IMG/VR virus record: IMGVR_UViG_3300017756_000057
Coordinates: 1-32,056 of that record
DNA from: a virus
Strand: one strand, 5' to 3'
DNA: 32,056 nucleotides
Under the pieces are notes generated by a model that did not search any database, was not told the origin of the DNA, and saw only the letters and a program-made list of their open reading frames with translations. Shown piece after piece: positions 26,493-30,451 of the stretch. Both the position numbers and the translations under genes were made by a program. Every line of letters begins with the position of its first letter. The first letter of the stretch is position 1.

Positions 26493-26621
26493 TTAGCGGC
26501 CTTGACCGCGTGTCTTTTTGCGTCCGTGGTTTGGCAGTGAGTGCCGGCCCTGCCCCTGTTTAGTTTTTTTGGGAGGACCGGGTTGCCACTGAACCTTGGA
26601 GAGTGATGTCCGAGATTTCAC
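26493..26621 (-). CDS. Small basic 42-residue protein between RNA polymerase and SSB
   Basis: This gene is easily missed because it is short and starts with GTG. The GTG at 26621 overlaps the last base of the RNA polymerase stop codon (TAGTG) and the frame ends six bases before the SSB start, so it fills the gap exactly. The peptide has a QWQPGPPKKTKQGQGRHS segment and a RKKTRGQGR ending, is strongly basic and has no hydrophobic stretch. I recall similar short basic peptides with PPKKT and RGQG segments in marine phages, but this cannot be checked here. An RNA- or DNA-binding role is plausible from composition alone. Confidence 0.7.
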   Translation of the reverse strand: MKSRTSLSKVQWQPGPPKKTKQGQGRHSLPNHGRKKTRGQGR

Positions 26622-28954
26622 TAACAGAAGAAATAAGGCGAGTCGTTCACCTCATCAACATCCAGATCTCCGACCATCAGATCGTCAGGTACTTCGACCC
26701 CGATCTGTTCTGCCCATTCTTTGAGGGGCTCGCCTTTATACATCTCGGCGTGATGCAGACGAATCTCCCGAGACAAAGCGTCCATGTCACATGACCTGGC
26801 CATCACACAATCGTGGATGGAAGTCCAGGGTTTATCCCAGCAGGAAAACGTGAACATGAGTAGGGCTGAGTCCCAGCTGTGTACCAGATTTGGCGACGAA
26901 GCTGAGCAGTGGTGGTTCACATCAACCTCACCGGGGCCTAGGTAGACACTGGCGGTGATGCGACCCACGCCCATGAGGTGGGTGTTGACTCGGCGGGTGA
27001 TTGGTTTCCGCAAGTCCTGACGGACAATGAAACCTGCAGGAGTGACCCACTGGAGATGCTCTGAGCCAGGCTTGTTCATATTTTGACGGACCACCTGTTT
27101 GATCCAGTTCATCACCTTGATAGGACCAGCAAAGACCTCAGGAATTGCGTGTTCGTAGATGGCAGTAGTGATCTCGGTAAGTAAACCTTTCTCACTCAAA
27201 TCTCTGCCTTGTTCTAACAACGCATCCCGAACATGGCCGCGGCTTGTGTGCCTACTAATCCCATATGGTAAGCACATAGTTGTTCTTTTGGTCACCTTGC
27301 GATTTAGCCAATCGCGGACCTCAGGACGTACATGTGCCTTTGCCTTTTCAGCAATGATCGCGTAGGCATCGACAGGCTTATCTGTCTTACAAACGTTGAC
27401 CAGGCTGGCTGCTGTCCGATCCATTGTCGCACTGCTGAGATGCTGTAGCCCTGAGGCGGTGGCATCTACCCCGATCATCAAACCCGACGTGGACTTGGTG
27501 CAAGCGAGACAACATTCAAACCATTCAAAGCAAGCCTGAAGAAAGCACCAGGGCTCATCAGCGTTTGCCCAGAGGTTCATGTTGCCAATGGGGTCAGTGG
27601 CGATTTCAGTGATGAGGTTGGGGTGAGATTCAGTCCATTCAATCCGTTCACTTAGCGTTGCTTTATCCAGCCCATAGCAGGTGGCAACGTGGAAGGCTAC
27701 CCAAAATCTATTAACGGGTCCTTCATCTGCAAAGAGATAGAGTGACTTTTCTGGGTCACATCCTTGCGGTGTAAGTGTGGGCTGAACGAAATAAATTCTT
27801 CCCCGGTAGTCGTAATTAGCGCAGAGCCATATACGAGGCTCGTCAATGAAACGTTTGGCGATATACATCACCTCAGTTGTCCTGACGTTCTCTCGTTCGA
27901 GCTGCGCGTTTCTGTCTTCAAGCTCCCGACGTTTGCGCTTGTACTCCCTGATCTCTTCTTCGGACGATGACTCGGTTAGATGATTGTGAATCTCTTTCCG
28001 CTCTTGTCTTTTGAATTTTCCGATCGAGATCATGTTGCGGAAGCAATGCTCCTGCACCTCGTACACACGCCTGTCGAGCTTGTAGGCGGTCTTCTGAAGA
28101 CGATTGACCATCTCCAGTGGCAGTTCCCCCTGCGGTAATGTGCAACCCCCGCGCACAAGCCTGTAGCCACGTTCAACGCCTGTTAGGTATCCACCAATGG
28201 ACTCATTTGTCCAATCAACAGGCTCATGAACCATTGGCCAAAGGCAGCTAGCAAGCTCCCTAGCCCGCTCCATGATTTGATCCTTGAGGTCAAGGAACTC
28301 ATTAGAGAAACGGACGATCGTGGCCCGTCTGCGCTTGCTTTCCTGAGCTGTCTGGGTGGAGAACCAACCCCGTGCCCTTTGGATGCACTCAATCAGCCAG
28401 GCACCCACCTCGTGGAGTGTGGTGGTTGACCACGTATCCCAGGCAATGCCTTTGTCATTGAATCCCTTGCGGAAGACCGTCAGTTTTTGACGGCTGCCCG
28501 TAGAAGCGTGAAACCTACCCTCGATGTTGTGAAACAGTTTTGGGTCCTGCTCCTGGTAGAAGCGCAGCCGTAGCTCGGACTGAACCGAGTGACCAACACG
28601 GGTGCAAAGCGTGATGTATGTCGGCCGCGACTCCTTACCCAACACATCCAGGCAGGTTTTCATTGCCAGTAGGGCAAGAACCTCTGGTTCACACTCCCCA
28701 ACACATGACCTGACAGCCGCGTAGTGCTTGCCTGCCCGACCGTTGCCGATCTGGGCTAGCCGCTCAGCGACCACGTCGGAGCACGCGGATAAATGCCCAT
28801 TGAGGGCGTGTTTACCCCACACCGCTGACGAGGCATAACTGCGTTGTTCGGCTCTCGTCGTTTTCGAATTAAGACGGGCGAGGGCCTCCTCTTTTTGCTC
28901 GACTGTTTCAAGGTGAAGCTGACGTGAGTACGGATCAACTTGTGTTTCGGTCAT
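26621..28954 (-). CDS. Single-subunit DNA-directed RNA polymerase, T7 gp1-like
   Basis: The 777-residue enzyme (T7: 883) transcribes the phage genes from phage promoters. Motif A is GVDATASGLQHLS with Asp497, and motif B is VTKRTTMCLPYG with Lys556 and Tyr564. The HSWDSALL segment and motif C (SIHDCVMA, Asp715) follow. These correspond to T7 Asp537, Lys631, Tyr639 and Asp812. The N-terminal region is shorter than in T7 but no motif is missing. The C terminus ends in PYFFC, whereas T7 ends in FAFA. The gene is preceded by a 52-residue acidic protein and a terminator, so it probably starts a new transcription unit downstream of the integrase region. Its target promoter cannot be proved here, but repeated motifs are listed separately. 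Confidence 0.97.
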   Translation of the reverse strand: MTETQVDPYSRQLHLETVEQKEEALARLNSKTTRAEQRSYASSAVWGKHALNGHLSACSDVVAERLAQIGNGRAGKHYAAVRSCVGECEPEVLALLAMKTCLDVLGKESRPTYITLCTRVGHSVQSELRLRFYQEQDPKLFHNIEGRFHASTGSRQKLTVFRKGFNDKGIAWDTWSTTTLHEVGAWLIECIQRARGWFSTQTAQESKRRRATIVRFSNEFLDLKDQIMERARELASCLWPMVHEPVDWTNESIGGYLTGVERGYRLVRGGCTLPQGELPLEMVNRLQKTAYKLDRRVYEVQEHCFRNMISIGKFKRQERKEIHNHLTESSSEEEIREYKRKRRELEDRNAQLERENVRTTEVMYIAKRFIDEPRIWLCANYDYRGRIYFVQPTLTPQGCDPEKSLYLFADEGPVNRFWVAFHVATCYGLDKATLSERIEWTESHPNLITEIATDPIGNMNLWANADEPWCFLQACFEWFECCLACTKSTSGLMIGVDATASGLQHLSSATMDRTAASLVNVCKTDKPVDAYAIIAEKAKAHVRPEVRDWLNRKVTKRTTMCLPYGISRHTSRGHVRDALLEQGRDLSEKGLLTEITTAIYEHAIPEVFAGPIKVMNWIKQVVRQNMNKPGSEHLQWVTPAGFIVRQDLRKPITRRVNTHLMGVGRITASVYLGPGEVDVNHHCSASSPNLVHSWDSALLMFTFSCWDKPWTSIHDCVMARSCDMDALSREIRLHHAEMYKGEPLKEWAEQIGVEVPDDLMVGDLDVDEVNDSPYFFC

Positions 28955-28987: not shown

Positions 28988-29146
28988 CTAAACGTCGTAA
29001 AACTTGTCTTTTTCCCTGTAAAACAATTCTTCTATTTCTTCGTCGGCGATAAACGGCAACCGACCATGTGCGAGATAAAAGGAATAGTCTTCAGCAGACA
29101 ATTCGTCTATTTCTTCCTGAGTCAAATACCCATTAGATTCTGTCAT
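28988..29146 (-). CDS. Acidic 52-residue protein just before RNA polymerase
   Basis: A short gene whose ATG lies at 29146, 33 bases from the RNA polymerase start at its other end. The product has 15 Asp/Glu against 4 Lys/Arg. It seems to be built of two related halves, each with an EEI(D/E)EL element (near residues 11 and 36). No membrane segment or cysteine is present. Very acidic small early proteins in phages sometimes mimic DNA or bind host enzymes, but nothing here fixes the target. A copy of the repeated GTGGGAGTGA element and a terminator lie directly upstream, so it is probably the first gene of the RNA polymerase transcription unit. Confidence 0.75.
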   Translation of the reverse strand: MTESNGYLTQEEIDELSAEDYSFYLAHGRLPFIADEEIEELFYREKDKFYDV

Positions 29147-29161
29147 TACTCACTTGCAGAA

Positions 29162-29171
29162 GTGGGAGTGA
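29162..29171 (-). promoter_or_regulatory. Repeated element GTGGGAGTGA, copy 4 (upstream of the RNA polymerase unit)
   Basis: One of four identical 10-mers found only between 29162 and 32055. On the minus strand it reads TCACTCCCAC. It lies between a terminator (29184 to 29206) and the acidic protein gene, exactly where a promoter or operator for the polymerase unit would be expected. On the minus strand it continues TTCTGCAAGT, similar to copy 1. Confidence 0.55.
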
Positions 29172-29183
29172 AGCCCCCTATTG

Positions 29184-29206
29184 AAAAACCGGGCTTACGA
29201 CCCGGT
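29184..29206 (-). terminator. Rho-independent terminator upstream of the RNA polymerase unit
   Basis: On the minus strand ACCGGG pairs with CCCGGT around a seven-base loop and is followed by TTTTT (counting the last stem base). It would end transcripts coming through the integrase and the structured interval before the polymerase unit begins. Confidence 0.8.
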
Positions 29207-29413
29207 CGCTTGCATTGATGACAGGTGAGGCTAGTTAGAACCTGAATGTAATGAAACGAACAGGTTCCCTGGTCTACACAGGGTTTCATGATTTTGAAAG
29301 CGGTCATCAACATGACCGGGCAGGGCTTGCAGGCCCCCTTGGCTGGGGTGGTAGATCCGCGTAGTTCGACGGATAGCCCGTTCTAACGGGGCAATGTCAG
29401 GTGTCAACCCCAG
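29184..29413 (-). ncRNA. Candidate structured RNA between attP and the RNA polymerase unit
   Basis: This interval has no convincing gene but many perfect stems. An outer 7-bp helix (29343 to 29349 with 29407 to 29413) encloses two hairpins (29355 to 29359 with 29370 to 29374, and 29377 to 29381 with 29386 to 29390). Then come GGGC/GCCC (29323 to 29326 with 29333 to 29336) and CGGTCAT/ATGACCG with a four-base loop (29301 to 29318). Next are CCCTG/CAGGG (29267 to 29283) and AACCTG/CAGGTT (29239 to 29266), and finally the terminator stem. The terminator's T-run sets the likely strand. It could be a non-coding RNA, a long structured leader, or DNA sites for integrase or replication proteins. A minus-strand frame (29231 to 29509) stays open through it but starts inside the tRNA antisense. 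Confidence 0.5.
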
Positions 29414-29442
29414 CGCCCGTGTTGTATCGTTCACCCCGTCAC

Positions 29443-29524
29443 GCACCAGTGGCGGAATTGGTAGACGCGCATGTTTCAGGTACATGTGCCTTCGGGTGTG
29501 GGAGTTCAAGTCTCCCCTGGTGCA
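29443..29524 (+). tRNA. tRNA-Leu (anticodon CAG), complete
   Basis: The 82-base gene folds as a class II tRNA. The acceptor stem is GCACCAG with CTGGTGC, followed by discriminator A. The D-arm is around GGCGGAATTGGTAGACGC, and a 5-bp anticodon stem (CATGT/ACATG) has loop TTCAGGT with anticodon CAG at 29477 to 29479. There is a long variable arm (TGCCTTCGGGTGT) and a T-arm GGGAG/CTCCC with TTCAAGT. CCA is not encoded. It is the only gene on the plus strand and its 3' end lies 3 bases from the integrase stop codon. In T7-like cyanophages with an integrase, the attachment site is part of a host tRNA-Leu, so the gene probably serves for integration and may also support translation. Confidence 0.93.
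29470..29524. other. Probable phage attachment site (attP core) in the 3' half of tRNA-Leu
   Basis: Tyrosine integrases commonly recombine in the anticodon to 3'-end part of a tRNA, and the integrase gene ends 3 bases away. Phage genes lie on both sides, so this is an unrecombined attP. The exact core needs the host tRNA sequence. Confidence 0.5.
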
Positions 29525-29527
29525 TTG

Positions 29528-30451
29528 TCAGAGCTTGTTCATCGCTTGACGCATAGCGTCATCGGATGGCTTGCAATACCGCAGGGTCGTTTCGACTTGT
29601 TTGTGCCCCATTAGCTCCATGATCTGTCTCGGGTGTGTCACCTCACCGAGCCACGTAGCGAAGCTGTGCCGCAGGCTGTGCCACACGTAGTCCTCGTTAA
29701 AGCCCGCTTGTTTGCGGACCCTTTTGAAGGCCCCGTACAGCTGATCTTTGTTTGTCCAGTCGCGTCCGAACAGTGTTGCCTGGGGGTGTGACCTCTCGCA
29801 GCGGTTGCGGAGGAGGTCCTCAATCCTGTCCGTGATCGGAATGGAGCGGCAGTCCTTGCCCTTGGTCTTGAGGTGGGCTTTACCGCCGACCCAGACGCAT
29901 CGCATCATCCAATCAATATCGGAAACCTTCAGCTTTAGGAGTTCCCCTTGGCGGACCCCTGTGTAAGCTGAGAAAAGGAGAGCATCGGCTAGGTCCGGTC
30001 GATGGAATACGTCAACCGCCACGAATGCGAGCTGTTCGACTTCTTCCTTCCCGAAGAATGTGTACCGGTGCTCTCCCTCCTCACCCTTTTCAAACTTGGG
30101 TGGTTTCACATTGCACAGGCCTTGGTCCCGGCAGAAGTTGACCATCGTGGTCCCGGCACTGAGTACCCGGTTGAGTGTTGACTCAGACCACTCGGGGTGG
30201 TCGTCTTTCAACTCCTCTTTTTTCTGGGTCCACCACGCGCCCTTTTTGGCCCTGATTAAGGGAGTGGAGTAGCCAGCGACAGCCATCCAGTGATCCATGT
30301 TGATCTTGGATGTCTTTTCTGACGCCTTGCCATTCCACTTGTGCCGCCACGTATATCGGGCAGCTTCACCGAACGTTTCTATGTCGTCGATGTCATTGGT
30401 GGGAGTGACGGTATCTGCTGATACCTTCCGTTTTTTGGTGCTGGTAGGCAT
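29528..30451 (-). CDS. int: Site-specific integrase, tyrosine recombinase
   Basis: A 307-residue tyrosine recombinase with an N-terminal SAM-like core-binding domain (about 50 to 115) and a complete catalytic domain: Arg167 in YTGVRQGELL, a Lys in the KTKGKD turn (195 to 199), the HSLRHSF box (His258, Arg261), His283 in MGHKQ and the nucleophile Tyr292 in TTLRYCKP. No active-site residue is missing, so the enzyme should be functional. It lies next to a complete tRNA-Leu gene in the opposite orientation, the usual int-attP pair, which suggests the phage can integrate or once did. One copy of the repeated 10-mer lies inside its 5' part (30399 to 30408). Confidence 0.95.
   Translation of the reverse strand: MPTSTKKRKVSADTVTPTNDIDDIETFGEAARYTWRHKWNGKASEKTSKINMDHWMAVAGYSTPLIRAKKGAWWTQKKEELKDDHPEWSESTLNRVLSAGTTMVNFCRDQGLCNVKPPKFEKGEEGEHRYTFFGKEEVEQLAFVAVDVFHRPDLADALLFSAYTGVRQGELLKLKVSDIDWMMRCVWVGGKAHLKTKGKDCRSIPITDRIEDLLRNRCERSHPQATLFGRDWTNKDQLYGAFKRVRKQAGFNEDYVWHSLRHSFATWLGEVTHPRQIMELMGHKQVETTLRYCKPSDDAMRQAMNKL
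30399..30408 (-). promoter_or_regulatory. Repeated element GTGGGAGTGA, copy 3 (inside integrase gene)
   Basis: The third identical 10-mer lies in codons 15 to 18 of the integrase. It has the same orientation as the others. In this position it could act on transcription of the integrase itself or be a coincidence of coding. Confidence 0.4.

Follow-up and report, generated by a model that had tools for sequence, protein, structure and literature searches.

The hairpin-rich stretch that lies between the integrase and RNA polymerase genes of this T7-like cyanophage is best explained as an attP region that targets the anticodon loop of the host tRNA-Leu(CAG) gene, with an adjacent complete tRNA-Leu(CAG) serving as a replacement; we put the probability of this reading at roughly 0.7. 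The position of the stretch, the core sequence, the loss of the tRNA half that relatives carry, the complete tRNA, the failure to restore the host gene, and the terminator all come directly from computation. Throughout, the window refers to the whole 32,056-nucleotide stretch of DNA analysed, an IMG/VR virus record of a T7-like cyanophage.

Organization of the integrase locus

Read leftward, the window carries an integrase gene (30451-29528), a tRNA-Leu(CAG) gene on the plus strand, the hairpin stretch, a terminator, a small ORF (29146-28988), and the RNA polymerase gene. The product of the first (29528..30451, minus strand) is a tyrosine integrase of 307 aa that matches Pfam Phage_integrase (PF00589, E=3e-24) and shares 54-56% identity with the integrases of S-CBP2, S-CBP42, and S-TIP28; a Pfam search found no separate arm-binding domain in it, a search that a divergent domain could escape. 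The T7-like RNA polymerase (26621..28954, minus strand; 777 aa) is 54% identical to that of S-CBP2, the phage whose integrase is 56% identical to the window's. The small ORF between the terminator and the RNA polymerase gene (28988..29146, minus strand), read from the sequence, begins MTESNGYLTQEEIDEL; S-CBP2 and the G288 provirus described below have related small ORFs in the equivalent position. A palindrome-like sequence, ACTTGCAGAAGT, is located at 29152-29163 between the terminator and this ORF, and downstream of the L045 integrase gene TTTGCTATAGCAAA and TTTGCCACTGCAAA flank the terminator of that locus; these three sequences are possibly operators of a MarR-like gene that adjoins the integrase gene (window 30797-30468).

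An earlier note on this DNA had described an array of stems at 29184-29413 that lacks a convincing gene and ends in a terminator, and inspection of the sequence bears this out: the stems are where they were said to be, no convincing gene was found within the stretch, and the final stem is a leftward terminator that points at the RNA polymerase gene. All of the stems in the stretch 29184-29414 are given on the minus strand. An 8-bp stem, GCTGGGGT/ACCCCAGC, pairs 29414-29407 with 29349-29342, and further stems lie at 29390-29377, 29374-29355, 29336-29323, 29318-29301, around 29283-29267, and at 29266-29239. The intrinsic terminator (29184..29207) consists of the hairpin ACCGGG..CCCGGT (29206-29188) and a TTTTT run (29188-29184). 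It is near-identical in S-CBP2-type relatives, other relatives have different stems at an equal position, and in L006 the T-run 3' of the stem is poor.

The hairpin stretch occupies an attP position

Among 80 related integrase loci, most carry the 5' half of a tRNA-Leu gene 85-130 nt past the integrase stop codon. This half is in the orientation of the integrase gene and ends in the anticodon loop, with the CAG type ending in TTTCAGGT. The distance from TTCAGGT to the terminator in CAG-type relatives is 25-48 nt (mode 31), and the terminator stems vary among the phages. The window lineage has TTCAGGT 32 nt ahead of its terminator and no other sense copy in that stretch, and because this is the spacing seen in the family, the hairpin stretch occupies the attP position. 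We propose ATTCAGGTTCT (29237..29247, minus strand, reading from 29247 to 29237) as the attP core on the basis of its spacing to the terminator and the presence of an identical 11-mer in the independent lineage L247. Within it, TTCAGGT (29246-29240) is identical to the loop that holds the anticodon of host tRNA-Leu(CAG), so that 7 bp are shared with the host gene. A core of seven bases is very short, and its presumed assignment rests on position and recurrence; a core site here also leaves the existence of the hairpins upstream of it unexplained. The window lineage has lost the tRNA half and kept the anticodon-loop core. A DNA role in integration, which the earlier note listed as an alternative, is the best fit to these data, given the attP position and a core whose distance from the terminator is that seen across the family.

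In 23 of the 24 distinct half-tRNA CAG attPs, an extended -10 promoter precedes the tRNA start by 40-65 nt (shuffled sequences would give 0.5), and in half-tRNA attPs a leader hairpin lies between this promoter and the half (for example in L021, L022, L024, and L029). Besides the half itself, the half-tRNA phages thus appear to provide a promoter from which the restored tRNA could be expressed. Promoter, 5' hairpin, core, and terminator follow one another in the window in the same order as in the half-tRNA attPs. One other locus, L080, has the 3' part of tRNA-Leu(CAG) in place of the 5' half, at most about 170 nt past the integrase stop codon, and in simulation its tRNA is restored at the opposite junction.

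Two further leads were discarded. A recurrent host 22-mer at the core falls in a protein-gene region without a tRNA, and the pattern ATCCGTCGAANNACGCGGAT matched two unrelated contigs, inside genes and by chance. BLAST searches with the stretch gave short chance hits only among 399 genomes of the host order and nothing credible among annotated phages, so a host origin of the stretch is unsupported.

Simulated integration does not restore the host tRNA

We joined attPs in silico at TTCAGGT with the tRNA-Leu(CAG) genes of nine hosts and scored the junctions with ARAGORN. For each of the nine half-tRNA phages tried, tRNA-Leu(CAG) was regenerated in 9/9 hosts. The window, L013, L018, L019, L045, L046, and L247, which have cores of 7-11 bp, restore it in 0/9 at either junction, and each of these contigs has a complete tRNA-Leu(CAG) oriented against its integrase gene. 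A canonical T7-like cyanophage attP shares about 36-42 bp of identity with tRNA-Leu and restores the gene, and the window shares 7 bp. The CAG tRNA pattern is single in 12 of 13 host genomes; host tRNA-Leu(CAG) genes (L255-L260) have anticodon stems CTAGT/ACTAG or CATGT/ACATG around an identical TTCAGGT loop. Losing the CAG tRNA is not necessarily lethal, as tRNA-Leu(UAG) might read CUG. A search of 399 genomes of the host order found no integrated copy of the window lineage.

A T7-like provirus at tRNA-Leu(CAG)

In the cyanobacterial genome G288, from the host order, a T7-like provirus of canonical type, about 45.5 kb long (G288:C12:2526-48103; L248, L253, and L254), is flanked by cyanobacterial genes, a fasciclin-like gene on one side and murA, tRNA-Leu(CAA), argD, and folC on the other. 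One end of the provirus carries the integrase gene, a leader, and a restored tRNA-Leu(CAG). At the other end, the promoter and 5' half of the host tRNA gene are joined to the P' arm, a terminator, and a small ORF resembling that of the window. In this provirus a member of the family sits exactly at the tRNA-Leu(CAG) anticodon loop, which supports the site assignment. The layout also suggests a role for the terminator in separating the host tRNA promoter from the phage genes. Like the window, the provirus has an integrase of this family and a terminator between the P' arm and the small ORF, with TTTCAGGT as its core; it differs in that the host tRNA is restored, the integrase is 38% identical to that of the window, and the RNA polymerase gene is upstream of the integrase gene. 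Elsewhere this genome has another integrase of the family, an incomplete one (G288:C48:7204-7806).

A complete phage-encoded tRNA-Leu(CAG)

The complete tRNA-Leu with anticodon CAG (29443..29524, plus strand; ARAGORN, and Rfam tRNA at 53 bits) is divergent from the integrase gene and adjoins its stop codon. A probable -10 element of its promoter, TATCGT (29425..29430, plus strand), lies 12 nt upstream; L006 has TATGTT 11 nt upstream of its tRNA, and host tRNA-Leu genes have TATGTT or TATCGT upstream. A pattern search found a complete tRNA in only three lineages: window/L005/L013/L006/L007, L045/L046/L244, and L247. Every contig found with a complete phage tRNA lacks the half, and the half-tRNA loci tested lack a complete tRNA. 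Compared with L045 and L247, the tRNA has compensated pair differences in its acceptor stem around a body that is the same or nearly so, a pattern that favors a functional molecule and speaks for selection on the phage tRNA as a working tRNA. The shared body suggests either common descent or exchange between lineages. In the integrase tree the window lineage stands apart from L045 and L247, and with a p-AU of 0.096 for a single clade, on long branches, a single origin of the complete-tRNA layout is neither shown nor rejected. The anticodon arm was dropped as a phage-specific mark, being found also in 19 of 399 host genomes, in six of which, on inspection, it belongs to a host tRNA-Leu(CAG) with a GCGGAT acceptor.

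Many phages carry tRNAs for translation or against host defence, and the tRNA here could serve in the translation of CUG codons or replace a tRNA cut by a defence system, its proximity to the integrase gene being incidental and the integrase perhaps idle. The CUG share of leucine codons in the RNA polymerase genes argues against codon supply, as it is lower in the window (0.21), L017 (0.15), and L045 (0.17) than in the half-tRNA phage S-CBP2 (0.43). Neither role accounts well for the fact that all of the lineages with a complete tRNA lack the half and keep the short CAG core, and we regard this explanation as distinctly unlikely; tRNAs in the context of defence have been discussed elsewhere (PMC10865867).

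It could also be supposed that the complete tRNA-Leu, which the earlier note equated with attP, acts as such through extended identity with a host tRNA gene, and that the hairpin stretch is only a P arm with integrase arm sites. The tRNA does adjoin the integrase gene as in classic attPs, and the stretch contains ACCTG-containing repeats. However, 339 genomes of the host order contain no match to the 3' end of the tRNA, even with one mismatch allowed, its orientation is opposite to that of half-tRNA attPs, and Pfam reports no arm-binding domain in the integrase, for which reason lambda-type arm sites, which the ACCTG repeats had brought to mind, were set aside. The tRNA has no counterpart in those 339 genomes and is probably no conventional attP; we consider the supposition very improbable.

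Conservation and folding of the hairpin stretch

The stretch was found in just four distinct versions, those of the window, L005, L013, and L006, the last of which is also present in L007. Between the window and L006, 81 of 90 positions are identical in a block around the proposed core (29211..29300, minus strand) and 29375-29355 is well conserved, with the sequence between these near 44-48% identical; identity at fourfold-degenerate sites is 48% in the integrase gene and 47% in the RNA polymerase gene. The conserved islands are TTGAC-N17-TAGAAC (minus strand), the hairpin at the expected transcript start, and the 90-base block around ATTCAGGTTCT. The first is part of a leftward promoter-like element, TTGACA - 16 bp - TAGAAC (29380..29407, minus strand), in which GGGTTGAC and TAGAAC are invariant in all four relatives, within a segment otherwise about 44% identical; a generic promoter scan did not score this element. 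The 5' hairpin, ATCCG...CGGAT (29355..29374, minus strand), is at the predicted transcript start and is invariant in all four bar two loop bases. It is hardly credible that the stretch is GC-rich intergenic filler with an ordinary terminator. The stem statistics given below are of only moderate significance, in keeping with chance, but the 81/90 identity around the core, against 47-48% at fourfold sites, and the conserved promoter-like elements argue against this.

The stretch has four perfect stems of 6 bp or more (loops of 3-30) against 1.2 expected, a count reached in 17 of 500 dinucleotide shuffles, and ten stems of 5 bp or more against 4.9 expected (reached in 9/300 shuffles), a modest excess over chance. 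For the window, the folding z ranges from about -2.4 to -2.7 for the minus strand and from -2.7 to -3.0 for the plus strand; in the relatives and the other complete-tRNA lineages it is mostly -0.3 to -2.0, with only the plus strand of L013 (-3.1) as low. The fold is only modestly unusual, and weaker in relatives. When the eight stems are compared with L006, two compensatory double changes fall in one stem and a single one in the outer helix; two further stems are broken in L006, and there is hardly any variation in the remainder. The stem with two is the hairpin CGGTCAT/ATGACCG (29301..29318, minus strand), which in L006 also has two broken end pairs. The multi-branched outer helix described in the earlier note is present, but it is weakly kept, with two of eight pairs lost in L006, which is 77% identical. 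The three double-change pairs all come from this single divergent relative, and shuffles reach as many in 9/500; covariation is thin. The Rfam search that the note had proposed as a check, run at gathering and relaxed thresholds, matched only the tRNA in this region and no known structured RNA family.

These data bear on the earlier note's main proposal, a free-standing structured regulatory RNA, here a minus-strand molecule of about 190 nt that would be made from its own promoter and run from about 29374 to the terminator at 29184; it could, for example, act on the RNA polymerase operon as an attenuator or in trans. The conserved TTGAC-N17-TAGAAC, the invariant hairpin at the predicted start, and the terminator all favor it, as do the double changes in hairpin 29318-29301 and the modest stem excess, which gives the proposal partial support. 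Against it, only three double-change pairs are seen, in one divergent relative in which two other hairpins are broken, the folding z is ordinary in most relatives, Rfam provides no match, the sequence is not common to the other complete-tRNA lineages, and the best conservation surrounds the attP core, loops included. We consider such an RNA unlikely.

A model for integration with a replacement tRNA

Beyond these observations, we infer that the integrase uses the core, that the phage tRNA rescues the host, and that the stretch is transcribed. The integrase would cross over at TTCAGGT, the host anticodon loop, as its position, its recurrence, and the provirus suggest. Leftward, the attP region would consist of the promoter, the 5' hairpin, more hairpins, the 7-bp core TTCAGGT, a 32-nt P' arm, and the terminator, followed by the small ORF and RNA polymerase gene. 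Half-tRNA relatives would supply the 5' half with its own promoter, such that integration restores the tRNA. In the window lineage the half is lost, and in silico the apparently single host tRNA-Leu(CAG) gene would be split and left unrestored, with predicted junctions of the host 5' half, TTCAGGT, and TCTAACTAGCC on one side, and ...TTACA, TTCAGGT, and the host 3' half on the other. In place of the lost host tRNA, the cell would use the complete tRNA-Leu(CAG) of the phage, which is oppositely oriented and has a promoter of its own, and the terminator would insulate the phage genes from the host tRNA promoter after integration. The conserved promoter, hairpin, and terminator point to a transcript of about 190 nt that crosses attP in the free phage, and the hairpins would belong to a transcribed attP leader that has been remodelled and would not form an RNA family in their own right.

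Inverted TTCAGGT sites, the attP core (minus strand) and the anticodon loop of the phage tRNA (plus strand), flank the segment from 29246 to about 29480. There is a very slim chance that the integrase inverts this segment, switching between the rescue-tRNA form and a half-tRNA-like form that would bring the phage tRNA's 5' half up against the P' arm, as in half-tRNA relatives. If true, the inversion together with the conserved promoter would constitute an invertible attP/tRNA/RNA switch.

Relation to known integration systems

T7-like cyanophages are abundant and behave as lytic phages, yet integrate into tRNA-Leu. Their integration into tRNA-Leu requires both integrase and attP, and no stable lysogens were obtained in the tests made (PMC8776855). 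Given integration without stable lysogens, the benefit of a rescue tRNA is uncertain. Like that of the window, the attPs of P-SSP7, S-TIP37, and S-CBP2 (PMC8776855) adjoin the integrase gene and have a tRNA-Leu anticodon-loop core, and S-CBP2 also shares the terminator spacing, the downstream small ORF, and the RNA polymerase gene. These attPs have a long tRNA-Leu match (39 bp in S-CBP2, computed here), whereas the window has 7 bp and a complete tRNA. Matches of 39 and 42 bp to tRNA-Leu have been reported in two cyanophage contigs (PMC3861242).

The closest parallel is tRNA-dependent lysogeny, described for the actinobacteriophages Fionnbharth, LeBron, and Gaia, the last of which has an 8-bp core in tRNA-Leu-CAA (PMC10865867), and documented mainly in actinobacteriophages so far. 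We would place the window lineage in this class on sequence features only. Both use a tyrosine integrase and an attB in the anticodon region of a host tRNA gene, with a short, non-restoring core (7-11 bp here and 8-17 bp in the actinobacteriophages) and a complete phage tRNA of the same isotype; in both, close relatives restore the tRNA and lack one of their own (PMC10865867). The half-tRNA relatives here carry a 5' half and promoter, in contrast to the 3' half of the actinobacteriophages (PMC10865867). The window lineage also differs in being a T7-like cyanophage, in having its tRNA between the integrase gene and the attP core, and in having no known lysogen.

Those who described tRNA-dependent lysogeny asked how frequent it is outside the actinobacteriophages (PMC10865867), and our reading, if true, extends it to T7-like cyanophages. 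Three lineages that trade tRNA restoration for a complete tRNA imply selection for host translation after integration, and integration is thus no mere accident. What makes the system interesting is this recurrent exchange, among T7-like cyanophages, of tRNA restoration for a rescue tRNA.
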